Shown in pieces: positions 51,210 to 57,563 of a DNA stretch of 64,000 nucleotides; positions within the stretch are counted from its first letter, which is position 1, and every line of letters starts with the position of its first letter. Source of the stretch: Pseudodesulfovibrio thermohalotolerans (lineage in GTDB: Bacteria > Desulfobacterota > Desulfovibrionia > Desulfovibrionales > Desulfovibrionaceae); contig NZ_CP120635.1 of the NCBI RefSeq assembly GCF_021353295.2, positions 1,096,001-1,160,000 on the forward strand, given 5' to 3'. A model generated the notes under the pieces. It searched no databases. It was given only the letters and a program-made list of their open reading frames with translations, and was not told the origin of the DNA. The position numbers were made by a program, and so were the translations under genes.

Positions 51210-52979
51210 TCAGGCCACGGCCTGTTCGTTCGGGGGCAGGCAGACCTTGCGGTCGATCTCGCGGACCTTCTTGAGGACGTTTTTGCTGATGCGCTTGAAT
51301 TCGCCCAGGTCCTTGGCTTCGTAGGCGAACTTGGCCCGGGTCAGTCCGGCAAGGTCCACGATCTCGTTGAACAGATACGGAGCGTAGAGCGGGTCCTGTT
51401 TGATGAACAGCTCCATTCGGTTCAGCGCTTCGTGCACGCTCTTCTGGTTCGCCTTGAGGTTCTTGAAGAGCTTGGCGAGGTGCTTTTCCATGTTGTGCAG
51501 GGAGGAGGTCCACATGGGCGAGCGCGGGTCCATTCGCAGGGGCGGCGCGTTGTGTTCACAGGCGCGGAGATCGCCCAGGAACCGTTCCACCGCGCCCGGG
51601 GCCGAGGCCAGAACGCCTTGCGAATAGGCCGTCTCCACGTCCACGACCTTGGTTCCCTCGATGGGAACGCCGCCGCCGTAAAGATTGTAGACCGGGAAAC
51701 CGGATTGTTTGAGGTCGTCCTCCAGTTCGCGTTTGGCGGTCATGTACTGCACCGTGGTCAGGATTTCCTCACCACTCATGTTCCTGGTGGTTTGGTGCCA
51801 GGAGCGCAGGCGCATACTGGTGGTGTGGTTGTGGTGGCCGCCCGAGTGGGACCGGCCGTTGATCCAGGCGTAGTCCTGCCCGGCCAGGAGCAGATGGGAG
51901 ACGCCGCAATAGCGCAGGAAGCGCGACAGGGTGACGGAGACATTGCCGCCAGCGTCCAGGACCAGGTCGCGTTCCTTGAGGACGTAGGTGCCCACGCCGC
52001 CCACGGTCCACAGGGGCAGGGTAGGGCCGGGGTACCGCTTGAGGATCATGGGATCGATTTTCGTGGAATAGATGAGCGGCACGTCCTGGACGAAGTCCGG
52101 GTCCAGCCTCTCGAACACCTTGAGCATGGACCCGTCGTAGTCGATGGCTGCGCACAGGTGCGGCTTGATGCCGAGCGTCTGGAGGGACGGGATGGTTTGC
52201 AGGGCGCAGGTGTAGAGCACATGCCCCATCTTTTCCTTGAGCAGAGGAGCCATGGTTTCCAAGGAAGGCCCTGCGCCGAGGATGACTGCGCCCACGCCCG
52301 CGCCCCGGCCTTCCATGGGCTTGAGGCTGCCGTCGCGCATGGCCTTGGCGAAGTTGTCGATCTCGTTGCGGACCATGACGTCCTGGCGATGGCGCAGGGT
52401 GGACAGCTCCAGGGAGAAATTCTCAAGCTTGTTCTTCAGCCAGGTGGACCAGCGGGCGTATTCCGGCCCGAGCTGGCGGCTGGGGATGTCGCTCTTGAGA
52501 TGGATGCTGCCGTAGACGAATTGCAGATCCAGGTTGCGGACCACTTCGGACAGGAACCGTTCGTCCGGAATCATCACGTGGAGCTTCTTGCGCTCGAAGA
52601 AAGGGCGGTAGTCGGTCTGCCCCAGGCAGGCCAGGAGCATTTCCGGCCGAGGTTCGAGGAGCATGACCTTGTGCGTGTCCGGTGTGTTGGCGAGCACGTG
52701 ATTCACGCCGTACCCCAGGTTGGAGCCGACGACGAAGGTGGCCGAGGTCGTCGCCTTCTCGGGCGTCGTCCAATTGCCGTACAATCCTTGCGGGGGGAGT
52801 GATTCGAGTATTCCCTTGCCGCTTTCCATACGCCAGTCGAGCAGGCCGAATTCGTTGATGAACAGGCTGTTTCGCAGTTTGTCTTCATCGAAGGGACGGG
52901 AGGAAAGCCACTGGAAAATGGGATTTCCGGTGCGTTGCAGGTATTCGATGTTGTCTTTCAGAAACGGGTACGGATTCAT
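51210..52979 (-). CDS. Maf-type (DUF115) motility-accessory glycosyltransferase
   Basis: 589 aa from the ATG at 52979 (AGAGG upstream). Contains the DUF115/MAF_flag10 core: FVVGSNLGYGVNHVL, then VGAVILGAGPSLETMAPLL, LCAAIDYDG, and a central GNVSVTLSRFLRYCGVSHLLLAGQDYAW. Maf proteins add pseudaminic or legionaminic acid to flagellin or otherwise modify glycans. The upstream frame to 53099 has no similarity. No flagellin gene is in the window, so the substrate is inferred only from the family. Confidence 0.88.
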   Translation of the reverse strand: MNPYPFLKDNIEYLQRTGNPIFQWLSSRPFDEDKLRNSLFINEFGLLDWRMESGKGILESLPPQGLYGNWTTPEKATTSATFVVGSNLGYGVNHVLANTPDTHKVMLLEPRPEMLLACLGQTDYRPFFERKKLHVMIPDERFLSEVVRNLDLQFVYGSIHLKSDIPSRQLGPEYARWSTWLKNKLENFSLELSTLRHRQDVMVRNEIDNFAKAMRDGSLKPMEGRGAGVGAVILGAGPSLETMAPLLKEKMGHVLYTCALQTIPSLQTLGIKPHLCAAIDYDGSMLKVFERLDPDFVQDVPLIYSTKIDPMILKRYPGPTLPLWTVGGVGTYVLKERDLVLDAGGNVSVTLSRFLRYCGVSHLLLAGQDYAWINGRSHSGGHHNHTTSMRLRSWHQTTRNMSGEEILTTVQYMTAKRELEDDLKQSGFPVYNLYGGGVPIEGTKVVDVETAYSQGVLASAPGAVERFLGDLRACEHNAPPLRMDPRSPMWTSSLHNMEKHLAKLFKNLKANQKSVHEALNRMELFIKQDPLYAPYLFNEIVDLAGLTRAKFAYEAKDLGEFKRISKNVLKKVREIDRKVCLPPNEQAVA

Positions 52980-53118
52980 GGCACGGCCTCTCATGCTCAA
53001 AAAATGGACGGTGACGAGGAGAAAATGCAGATTGTATGCCAGTTGCGTCATGCTTGTTTTTGACCTAGGGTGCGGACATCGATTTCCAATCCAAACCACA
53101 TGATTTCAGGGCGCTGCG

Positions 53119-55398
53119 ATGAACAAGAACCTGCTCGAACTGATCGGCGACACACCGCTGGTGGAGATACGCCGCCTCAATCCCAATCCGAACGTCAGGA
53201 TTTTGGCCAAGATCGAGAGCCGCAATCCCGGCGGTTCCATCAAGGATCGCGTGGCCGCTGCCATGATCGAGGCGGCGGAGAAGTCGGGCGAGCTGACCGG
53301 CGACAAGATCATTATCGAGGCCACCTCCGGCAATACCGGCGTGGGGCTGGCCATGGTCGCGGCCATCAAGGGCTATCGCATCAAGCTGATAATGCCCGAG
53401 ACGGCGAGCGAAGAGCGCAAGATGATCATGGCCGCCTATGGCGCGGAGCTGGAGTTGACCCCCGGCCATCTGGCCACCGACGGGGCCATCGAGCAGGCCT
53501 ACCGCTATGCCCGCGAGGAGCCGGACAAGTACGTGCTCATGGATCAGTACAACAACCTGGCTTCCATACGGGCGCACTACATGGGCACCGGGCTTGAGAT
53601 CTGGAATCAGACCGGCGGCGCGGTGACGCACTGCGTCATGACGCTTGGCACCTCGGGCACGGCCATGGGTATCGCGAAACGGCTGCACGAGATGGGCGAC
53701 GTCTACGTGGCCGCCGTGGAGCCTTATGCGGGCCACAAGATTCAGGGCCTCAAGAACATGCTCGAATCCTACCCGCCGGGCATCTACGACAAGAACGCGC
53801 TGGATGAGGTTCTGCACGTCGAGGACGAGGTCGCCTTCGAGAACTGCCGCAGGCTGGCGCGCGAGGAGGGCATCTTCGCGGGCATGAGCTCGGGCGCGGC
53901 TCTCGGCGGCGCCTTGCAGTTGGCGGAACGGCTGGACAAGGGGCTCATCGTGGTCATCTTCCCGGACTCGGGCGAGCGATATCTGTCCACCCACCTCTAC
54001 CGTCGGCGGTCCGGCAGCGGGGTGACGATTTTCGACATGGCGTCCAACGCCGACAAGATGCTCAATACCGGCAACGGGCTGGGCGCGTACACCATGGGGC
54101 CGAGCCTGGACAACCCGGACGGCCTGGATTCCTGGCGCAGGCTGGCGTTGCTCGATGTGTTCATCAGGCATCTGGCCGGGCGGGGCGTGGAGGCTGTCGG
54201 CGTGGCCGGGTTGACCGACATGGACGACCGGACCCTTGTCGCCGCCCGCGAGGAGGGCACCGACCGCGCCTCTCTTGCCGAGGCGCGCCGCGAGGCTATT
54301 CTGGAGCGCGGCCGGGCCATGGGGCTGTCGGACTCCCTGAGATTTCCCCTGTCCTCGGCGAGCAACGAGACCGCTTTGAATTTGTGCCGGAAGCTCCTGG
54401 GCAAGGGGCTGGCCTACGAGAAGCTGCGGTCCGTCTATTTCGACGTGTTTCGCGACAAGCGGTACGGCGAGATCGGCACCGTGGACATGGACAAGGTGTC
54501 CGGCGGTCGCACCGTGGACCTGGACGCCTACGTCAAGGACAATCCCCTCGACTTCACGCTGCTCAAGCGGGCCTCGCTCATGGACCTGAAGCGCGGCGAG
54601 GTGCTGGAGACCCAGTGGGGCAACGTGCGTCCGAGTTGGTTTCTGCAACACGCGGCCATGGCCCTGGACGAGGCCGAGCGCACGGATGTGATGATCGGCT
54701 CGGACAAGCACCGCTTTCCGCACTTGGAGAACCTGCGGGCCATCTGGTCCACGGCCGGTCGCGAGGTCCAGGCGTGGATGGCCTGCCAGCAGACTTCGGA
54801 AGGCGAGGGCGAGACCCTGGCGACCGTGGCCGAAAAGCTTGGCGGCTACCGCGCGGCCCGGCTCTGGCTGCTGTCCGTGTCAACCCGCAAGCCGCTGTGC
54901 GCGTCCGACGACAACCTTTCCATGTGGGCGCGCAACTGGCGCCGCATTCAGGAGGGCGCGGCAGCCCTGACGCTCGCTCTCGGCGCGCGTGGCGACACGG
55001 TGCCCAGCGATGTGAATCAGGCGGTATTCGATCTCAAGGCGGCCTTCAAGACGGCCATGGACGACGGCCTCAAGCTCCATACGTTCTGGCCCGCCCTGTT
55101 CAAGTTTGTCAAACAGGTCAATCACTGGACCGCGAGCGACGAGCTTACCGGCGCGGCGGCCGCGATCTGCCTCGACGAGCTTAAGGCCGTCGACGCCATC
55201 CTCGCCATCCTCGACCCCGCCCAGATGCCCGTTCCCCTCTCCGACCTCCCCGTCGAGGTCCAGGGCATGGTCGCCGACCGCCAGAAGGCCCGGGACGCCA
55301 AGGATTTCGCGCTGTCCGACCAGTTGCGCGACAAAGTCGCGGCGGCAGGCTTCCGAGTGGAAGACACCGGCGGCGCGCCGAGGGTGTTCAAGGCATAG
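53119..55398 (+). CDS. Cysteine synthase fused to a catalytically degenerate cysteinyl-tRNA synthetase-like domain
   Basis: 759 aa, where a cysteine synthase has about 310. Residues 1-300 are a CysK/CysM enzyme: NPGGSIKDR with PLP Lys42, EATSGNTGVGLA, GTSGTAMG, and FPDSGERYLS near its end. It should make cysteine from O-acetylserine (or O-phosphoserine) and sulfide. Residues 305-759 follow the whole cysteinyl-tRNA synthetase fold, including GLTDMDD (364-370), NPLDFTLLKR (475-484), RPSWFLQHAAM (504-514), FPHLEN (533-538) and the C-terminal KARDAKDFALSDQLRD (723-738). The active-site residues are lost: the zinc Cys before GP is Met (326), HIGH reads DGLDS, the Cys of WHIEC is replaced, HHEN is HLEN, and no KMSKS is found (EGEGETLATV stands there). 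The second half therefore looks non-catalytic, regulatory or of new function. Confidence 0.9.
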   Translation: MNKNLLELIGDTPLVEIRRLNPNPNVRILAKIESRNPGGSIKDRVAAAMIEAAEKSGELTGDKIIIEATSGNTGVGLAMVAAIKGYRIKLIMPETASEERKMIMAAYGAELELTPGHLATDGAIEQAYRYAREEPDKYVLMDQYNNLASIRAHYMGTGLEIWNQTGGAVTHCVMTLGTSGTAMGIAKRLHEMGDVYVAAVEPYAGHKIQGLKNMLESYPPGIYDKNALDEVLHVEDEVAFENCRRLAREEGIFAGMSSGAALGGALQLAERLDKGLIVVIFPDSGERYLSTHLYRRRSGSGVTIFDMASNADKMLNTGNGLGAYTMGPSLDNPDGLDSWRRLALLDVFIRHLAGRGVEAVGVAGLTDMDDRTLVAAREEGTDRASLAEARREAILERGRAMGLSDSLRFPLSSASNETALNLCRKLLGKGLAYEKLRSVYFDVFRDKRYGEIGTVDMDKVSGGRTVDLDAYVKDNPLDFTLLKRASLMDLKRGEVLETQWGNVRPSWFLQHAAMALDEAERTDVMIGSDKHRFPHLENLRAIWSTAGREVQAWMACQQTSEGEGETLATVAEKLGGYRAARLWLLSVSTRKPLCASDDNLSMWARNWRRIQEGAAALTLALGARGDTVPSDVNQAVFDLKAAFKTAMDDGLKLHTFWPALFKFVKQVNHWTASDELTGAAAAICLDELKAVDAILAILDPAQMPVPLSDLPVEVQGMVADRQKARDAKDFALSDQLRDKVAAAGFRVEDTGGAPRVFKA

Positions 55399-56426: not shown

Positions 56427-57563
56427 CTAGTCAAACAGATACAGGAATTCACCATACCCCTCGGCTTCCATTTTATCCTTGGGGATAAAGCGCAGGGCGG
56501 CGGAGTTCATGCAATAGCGTTGGCCCGTGGGCAGCGGACCGTCCGGGAAGACGTGGCCCAGATGGGAGTCGGCGGCCTTGCTGCGCACCTCGGTGCGGGG
56601 CTGGAAAAGACGACGGTCCACCTTTTCCACGAGGTTCTCCGGGACCAGCGGCTTGGTGAAGCTCGGCCAGCCCGTGCCGGAATCGTATTTGTCCGTGCTT
56701 GAGAAGAGCGGCTCGCCACTGACCACATCCACGTAGATGCCGTCCTCGTGGTTGTCCCAGTATTTGTTGTCAAAGGGCGCTTCCGTGCCCTCATGTTGGG
56801 TGACCTGGTACTGGAGGGGCGTCAGGGTCCGCTTGAGCTCGGCGTCGCCGGGCTTGGTGAATGTGTCGTCGGAGGCCGGAGGTTCGGGCGCGGTGCGGCG
56901 GGCCGCCTCGATGACGTCGTCGGCCTCGTCGCCCCAGTGCTCGCTCACGAACCTGTCGCGGCCGGAAAAGCGGCGGTAGGTCTTGTAGCGCACCGGGTTG
57001 AGGCCGGAATATCCCTGGTGGTAGCCTTCGGCCGGATAGAAAGTGGTGAACTCGATGACGGGCGTGACCACGGGGCTGTCAAACCGGCCGGACGCGTCGA
57101 GAGCCTGTTTGGAGGCTTCGGCGATCTCCCTTTGTTCCTCGTTGTGATAGAAGATGGCCGAGGTGTATTGGAACCCCCGGTCGCCGAACGAGCCGCCGTC
57201 GTCGGTGGGGTCGAAATGCCGCCAGTAGTGGTCGAGGACCTGGCTGTAGCTGATCCGCGACGGGTCGAAAGTGACCTGCACCGACTCGCGGTGGCTGGTA
57301 AGACCGCTTGCCACCTGTTCATAGGAAGGGGTGGCCTCCACGCCGCCTGCATAGCCCGAAACGGCCTTTATCACGCCGGGCAATTTCGCCATGTCGGATT
57401 CGATGCACCAGAAGCACCCGCCGGCCAGGGTGGCCGTTTCTTGTTTCAATCTGCCGTTATCAGCCATTTTCACTTCCTCCGATGAAAAGGATGGGGTCGG
57501 TCCGAAGCCGAGTTGCAGGCCCAGGACCCCGATCAGAATTATGAATGCGAACTTGCGCTGCAT
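56427..57563 (-). CDS. msrAB: Exported bifunctional methionine sulfoxide reductase MsrAB
   Basis: 378 aa. Signal peptide ([20 protein letters not shown]). MsrA domain (about residues 42-200) with catalytic GCFWC and later GYHQGYSG; MsrB domain (about 245-375) with catalytic Cys in [10 protein letters not shown]. The MsrB half lacks the two CxxC pairs that bind zinc in many MsrB proteins ([17 protein letters not shown] is present without them), as in zinc-less forms. Repairs both S- and R-methionine sulfoxide in periplasmic proteins during oxidative stress, fitting a strict anaerobe. CGGAGA precedes the ATG. Terminator follows. Confidence 0.95.

Follow-up and report, generated by a model that had tools for sequence, protein, structure and literature searches.

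A cysteine synthase fused to a cysteinyl-tRNA synthetase paralog without catalytic motifs in Pseudodesulfovibrio thermohalotolerans, and its family across the phylum

The window, the whole stretch of 64,000 nucleotides of Pseudodesulfovibrio thermohalotolerans DNA that we analysed, contains a gene in which a cysteine synthase continues in frame into a domain resembling cysteinyl-tRNA synthetase (CysRS). Its features are given below; counts out of 130 refer to the set that remained when 191 fusion sequences, with some genes represented twice, were reduced at 85% identity.

53119..55398, plus strand: whole gene, CysK/CysM-type cysteine synthase plus CysRS-like domain, 759 aa; same frame in relatives
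53119..54003, plus strand: PLP-dependent cysteine synthase half, residues 1-295 (TIGR01136; best match among solved structures is 2bhs, CysM of E. coli)
53242..53244, plus strand: Lys42, the PLP lysine; K in 130/130 fusions
53752..53754, plus strand: Lys212 in the loop HxIQGLKNM, candidate contact to an acid substrate (O-phosphoserine); K in 130/130 fusions
54019..55395, plus strand: CysRS-like half, residues 301-759
54094..54096, plus strand: Met326 at zinc ligand C28 (alignment); C in 35/130 family sequences
54121..54132, plus strand: Gly-Leu-Asp-Ser 335-338 replacing HIGH (alignment); HxGH in 0/130
54139..54141, plus strand: Arg341, a family-specific invariant (130/130); mostly Ser in canonical CysRS
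54400..54654, plus strand: connective-peptide-like region, residues 428-512, with 8 of 10 family-specific invariants (p 4.8e-5)
54649..54651, plus strand: His511 at zinc ligand C209 (alignment); C in 43/130
54721..54723, plus strand: His535, the one zinc ligand that is kept (H234 in E. coli); H in 130/130
54733..54735, plus strand: Leu539 at zinc ligand E238 (alignment); E in 33/130
54796..54816, plus strand: approximate site of the missing KMSKS (alignment)
55240..55395, plus strand: C-terminal anticodon-binding domain (PF23493 at 708-752; gapless alignment to 1li5)

The synthase half is complete, as the original prediction had it. It passes the curated cut-off of the cysKM profile TIGR01136 (346.9 bits against 344.15), and keeps both Lys42, which we take to be the PLP-binding lysine, and the TSGNTG loop. 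This active-site loop is nearly invariant across the 130 fusions, with S70, G71, N72, T73 and G74 each present in all of them and position 69 either T (121 sequences) or S (9). We predict a cysteine-making function for this half.

The C-terminal half has a CysRS fold from end to end by alignment and by structure comparison, again as predicted, although the model of the whole protein (pTM 0.62) leaves the placement of the domains unsure. It matches the anticodon-domain profile CysS_C at 23.3 bits against a cut-off of 23, and falls well below the cut-off of the cysS profile TIGR00435 (125.2 bits against 340). Relative to the E. coli enzyme, M326 replaces C28, GLDS replaces HIGH, H511 replaces C209 and L539 replaces E238, so that the zinc quartet C, C, H, E reads M326, H511, H535, L539 with three of four ligands gone; KMSKS is absent from the alignment. 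H535, W507, D367 and N538 are kept. At the level of sequence we confirm both points: the cysteine synthase has an intact active site, and the CysRS fold to which it is joined has no catalytic motifs and most likely cannot charge tRNA.

The genes around the fusion vary. A divergent neighbour at 51210-53099 has an MptE-like domain; it belongs to an apparent cluster in 36 of the 162 loci compared, in 132 of which the fusion was identified, and lies on the opposite strand beside the fusion in 28, making it the most frequent neighbour. We see no clear link between this gene and the fusion, and rejected the idea of a partner gene because other clusters were rarer and none was common to the whole family. 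We likewise rejected a dedicated tRNA-Cys partner, as no tRNA-Cys gene was found near the fusion in the window or in 53 loci searched. Downstream, on the minus strand, 56427-57563 encodes a fused MsrA-MsrB methionine sulfoxide reductase with an N-terminus that looks hydrophobic by eye.

The fusion is widespread. A query with the C-terminal half found matches at E <=1e-60 in 116 of 199 genomes of the class, including all 29 genomes of the window's genus, and at E <=1e-66 in about 154 of 395 genomes of the phylum, where canonical CysRS match more weakly; both are hand counts of C-half matches, the fused frame having been verified in the loci that were fetched. A scan of named genomes returned 501 relatives among 519 stretches, and among the best 80 of these 77 aligned over nearly both halves and three (L096, L121, L136) over part. 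The same fused frame in relatives rules out an assembly artefact, and with it a sequencing error that joined two proteins. The original prediction could name no characterised system of this kind, and among open-licence full texts we found no published description of it by title or start of abstract; the portion of PMC2922099 available to us does not describe it either.

We built a tree from 70 fusion sequences and 33 of canonical CysRS, the canonical rows all from this phylum and the fusion rows too, except L095, L152 and L158, whose records are filed elsewhere. Every fusion row falls on one side of a single branch (SH-aLRT 100, by a quick method), and 41 rows from the window's class and its near kin are set off at their base by a long branch (1.4 changes per site).

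Within the family the synthetase motifs are lost by degrees. The complete zinc quartet is present in 28 of the 130 fusions, 15 have a partial one and 87, the window protein included, have no zinc cysteine. A KMSKS-like KxS loop occurs in 22, six of them reading KMSRS, and the first His of HIGH is retained in 17, with HxGH in none; 86 have lost all three of the zinc Cys, the first His of HIGH and the Lys of KMSKS. Position 341 is Ser in 27 and Ala in 4 of 33 canonical CysRS. Judged on these alignments, the changed HIGH region and Arg341 mark the family, while the zinc site and KMSKS have eroded in some lines only. What stays constant is the loss of HxGH, Arg341 and, described below, the anticodon contacts. 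The dead active site that was originally proposed holds for the window protein and needs qualifying for the family: because a zinc site and a KMSKS-like loop survive in some relatives, it is the derived end of the family, and the window protein, by its motifs, is at that eroded end.

At the other end, five loci (L196, L199, L200, L202, L203) keep the zinc site, the first HIGH His and KMSRS together, and the KMSRS-type fusions L202, L203 and L199 reach 418-434 bits, above the NCBI cysS cut-off of 340, with HxGH lost. These scores fit the name cysteine--tRNA ligase, which NCBI gives to less eroded members among the matches listed (best 80 or 120), window-like members there being mostly named cysteine synthase; for the less eroded members the ligase name is probably wrong. 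Such relatives speak for a C-terminal half that is still catalytic, with a new chemistry such as making cysteine from seryl- or phosphoseryl-tRNA-Cys or ligating cysteine to a small molecule. We consider this very unlikely, as HxGH is absent from all 130 sequences and the window's lineage, set apart by its long basal branch, has neither HIGH nor KMSKS nor zinc cysteines.

The original prediction also offered an MshC-like ligase gone non-catalytic, which we reject. The MshC profile TIGR03447 gives the window protein 38.8 bits against a cut-off of 485.1, as compared with 125.2 for CysRS, and the anticodon domain is present. MshC, the mycothiol cysteine ligase, keeps catalysis and, to our knowledge, has no anticodon domain, the reverse of the fusion, which has the anticodon domain without catalytic motifs. 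The model of the window protein also matches an MshC structure, but this does not discriminate between MshC and CysRS, since most of the solved CysRS chains listed also end near model residue 705. As a separate observation, two other long genes (L267:845-3031 and L268:2752-4965, minus strand, in genomes G255 and G290) combine the catalytic domain of CysRS, scored at 337 and 324 bits, with a glycosyltransferase family 2 domain; by eye they carry HIGN or HLGN and KMAKS, they have no CysS_C match, and they are possibly MshC-like cysteine-sugar ligases.

The CysRS half is under purifying selection, looser than that on the synthase half. In comparisons with close relatives, dN/dS of the CysRS half could be computed for eight of nine pairs and was 0.08-0.30; it exceeded that of the synthase half (0.015-0.10) in every one of these pairs. 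The mean share of the commonest residue was 0.53 in the CysRS half against 0.75 in the synthase half. Conservation has fallen unevenly. Canonical CysRS have 25 conserved positions in each catalytic part, where the fusions have 8 and 6; in residues 600-759 the numbers are 12 and 6, whereas residues 428-512 stay conserved, with 30 and 25 of 85. The faster change of this half is what would be expected of a relic, a decaying passenger without function, yet we regard that reading as extremely improbable: selection acts in all eight pairs, length is kept in relatives across the phylum, the half has invariant positions, and in 30 fusion-less genomes the synthase half has no close counterpart as a separate protein, the listed matches being 38-48% identical.

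The window genome, a single contig, has a separate CysRS (462.9 bits), the cysS whose presence had been left to be checked, and a separate CysK (443.8 bits). Searching 35 genomes with TIGR00435 gave no match besides the fusion in seven (G025, G047, G126, G203, G274, G408, G538), all drafts of at least 50 contigs, four of them 62-94% complete and three (G025, G047, G126) 97-100%. Their draft state and, in four, their incompleteness make gaps the likely reason for the missing second CysRS, so that the fusion is probably not a genome's only CysRS, less surely so in G025, G047 and G126.

Nearly all cysE-like genes fall below the cut-off of TIGR01172, which was reached by 2 of 50 fusion genomes and by none of 30 fusion-less genomes of the class, so we judged presence by E-value and counted E <=1e-40 as strong. 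The fusion is the only cysKM match at E <=1e-60 in 27 of the 50 fusion genomes, a proportion that is not a population estimate because the 50 were hand-picked, the first ten for few or weak cysKM matches. In these 27, which include all ten, 24 have no cysE at 1e-20 and three have weak matches (2e-34 to 4e-31); the other 23 genomes have a second CysK, and every one of them matches cysE at 1.5e-42 or better (Fisher p 9e-15, counting the three weak matches as absent). Leaving out the first ten, which hold all three weak matches, cysE is found in 0 of 17 fusion-only genomes against 23 of 23. In the 30 fusion-less genomes, also hand-picked, cysE is strong in 28, absent from G046 and weak in G177.

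In fusion-only genomes without a strong cysE, cysteine made from sulfide by a CysK-type enzyme would have to come from the fusion without the usual supply of O-acetylserine. These 27 genomes point to a cysteine synthase that probably works independently of O-acetylserine, perhaps with O-phosphoserine. The original prediction had neither this tie to a missing cysE nor the conserved Lys212 loop, both of which suggest a synthase half independent of O-acetylserine. Activated serine could also be supplied without CysE by a MetX-type serine acyltransferase. The accessible text of PMC7311316 (GapMind) names no cysteine gap for Desulfovibrio. Six genomes lack both the fusion and a strong cysKM match, G046 and G177, which have no strong cysE, and G107, G142, G191 and G195 of the window's class; they are candidates for cysteine auxotrophy, a third route or gaps.

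Lys212 bears on the acceptor. It is invariant in the fusions and sits opposite an Arg of E. coli CysM; of 31 stand-alone CysK-type sequences from the class, 30 have Gly here. The fusion would resemble the O-phosphoserine sulfhydrylases (CysK of A. pernix and T. kodakarensis, CysM of M. tuberculosis) in being a cysteine synthase able to do without CysE; we know of none of these with a CysRS-like domain. The excerpted text of PMC5120207 describes a basic residue in the substrate loop of the A. pernix and T. kodakarensis enzymes, and a Lys at the Sep-recognition position of the O-phosphoserine-using T. kodakarensis CysK. SerA (TIGR01327) scores above cut-off in 17 of 28 genomes, the 27 fusion-only ones and the window's, and sub-threshold in the other 11, all members of the window's class. 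O-phosphoserine is the likely acceptor, with the want of an above-cut-off SerA in the window's class counting against it. Fragment searches of the PDB with the Lys212 loop gave alignments to leucine-rich-repeat proteins only, cysteine synthases ranking lower in one, and a literature search on Arg220 found nothing.

What the CysRS half might do for such an enzyme is best approached from its C-terminal domain. R721, R725, F730, D734 and D749 align without gaps to R423, R427, W432, D436 and D451 of E. coli CysRS, the last of which is presumably a further anticodon contact; F in place of W432 also occurs in canonical CysRS of the window's class. For the other four, the section of PMC12684709 available to us, citing Hauenstein 2004, lists contacts to G34 of tRNA-Cys by R427, D436, W432 and, via water, R423. 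The pattern R/K-aromatic-D-D at 725, 730, 734 and 749 is kept in 126 of 130 fusions; among the 87 that lack any zinc Cys, 83 have it. By residue group, 11 of 160 positions in residues 600-759 are conserved at >=97%, all five contacts among them (p 5.6e-7); by identity at 96%, three of the five are among six positions (p 2.9e-4). With its anticodon-reading domain kept, the CysRS paralog most likely binds tRNA-Cys, although the kept residues could be partly structural.

These contacts would also be expected if the C-terminal half kept tRNA-Cys or the genuine CysRS close to the synthase, letting freshly made cysteine be used at once with no allostery involved, and the many invariants surviving in residues 428-512 (25 of 85) offer a plausible contact surface for such a scaffold. 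We think this unlikely: no gene partner is constant across the family, and the sequence reveals no path between the two active sites in a model whose domain placement is itself unsure. Similarly improbable, in our judgement, is a module that uses no tRNA, and either employs its former active site to sense cysteine or another small anion or sets only the oligomeric state, roles comparable to those of HisZ and of the regulatory C-terminal domain of cystathionine beta-synthase. The zinc quartet that would bind cysteine is kept in 28 of 130 fusions, the family-specific Arg341, Arg484 and Lys491 are all basic, and HisZ may serve as a precedent; against this, zinc cysteines are wholly missing from 87 of 130, the window protein among them, and the anticodon domain would be superfluous.

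Known systems provide partial parallels. HisZ is class II, and is a separate subunit acting on the first step of its pathway, whereas the fusion places a class I CysRS paralog, with its anticodon domain kept, on the last step. They would be alike in attaching a dead aminoacyl-tRNA synthetase paralog to an enzyme making the same amino acid: in the available part of PMC9437257, HisZ is described as a paralog of HisRS that has no adenylation activity and regulates the ATP phosphoribosyltransferase HisG. The fusion shows this trait in that a synthetase paralog without catalytic motifs, presumably inactive, is joined to a biosynthetic enzyme. Cystathionine beta-synthase has the same layout, a PLP beta-synthase followed by a C-terminal regulatory (Bateman) module, but in the fusion the module has a CysRS fold. 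The SepRS/SepCysS route likewise connects the making of cysteine with a PLP enzyme and tRNA-Cys, yet its proteins are unrelated to the fusion, and a true CysRS is present as well in most of the fusion genomes checked. The same part of PMC9437257 names MshC and CysRS* as CysRS paralogs, and describes CysRS* of Desulfobacterales (Mukai 2017) as charging a SelC-type tRNA without an anticodon domain. CysRS* is thus another CysRS paralog in related sulfate reducers; the fusion differs in having the anticodon domain and not the catalytic motifs.

We tentatively propose, with confidence just short of even, that the fusion is a CysM-like synthase, its acceptor most likely O-phosphoserine, with a dead CysRS paralog as an allosteric gauge of tRNA-Cys; a sensor of tRNA-Cys or cysteine, as first suggested, remains the leading idea. 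The CysRS-like half would read tRNA-Cys through its anticodon domain, uncharged tRNA-Cys would raise cysteine synthesis, and free cysteine would lower it in lineages with a kept zinc site. CysE is the step normally inhibited by cysteine. Cysteine made without CysE needs another control point, which the CysRS-like domain would supply, and the gauge would replace the feedback that normally acts on CysE. We infer tRNA binding, the substrate, the loss of charging and the regulatory sign. The sharper version, in which tRNA-Cys itself is the allosteric ligand, bound via its anticodon, and synthesis proceeds with uncharged tRNA and needs neither O-acetylserine nor CysE feedback, seems to us possible but rather doubtful.

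Against a gauge that stands in for CysE, the window genome carries cysE-like and cysK genes too: the cysE-like gene (G000:C1:1821714-1823497) adjoins the canonical cysK and scores 170.8 bits against the TIGR01172 cut-off of 210.65. Nor does the state of the zinc site track cysE. Among the 50 genomes, 12 of 18 with a full-quartet fusion have cysE and 6 do not, and we dropped the idea that a kept zinc site goes with a missing cysE. The lack of a tRNA-Cys gene near the fusion in the loci searched, and of a clear link to the MptE-like neighbour, likewise tell against the proposal.

The fusion family is widespread, with matches in roughly 40% of the genomes sampled from the phylum (hand count), and would give those of its bacteria that have no recognisable cysE a way to make cysteine. 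The graded loss of the zinc site, KMSKS and HIGH in living lineages provides a natural series for asking what a synthetase retains once it stops charging. If the C-terminal half senses tRNA-Cys, a single protein would directly connect the charging of a tRNA with the making of its amino acid.
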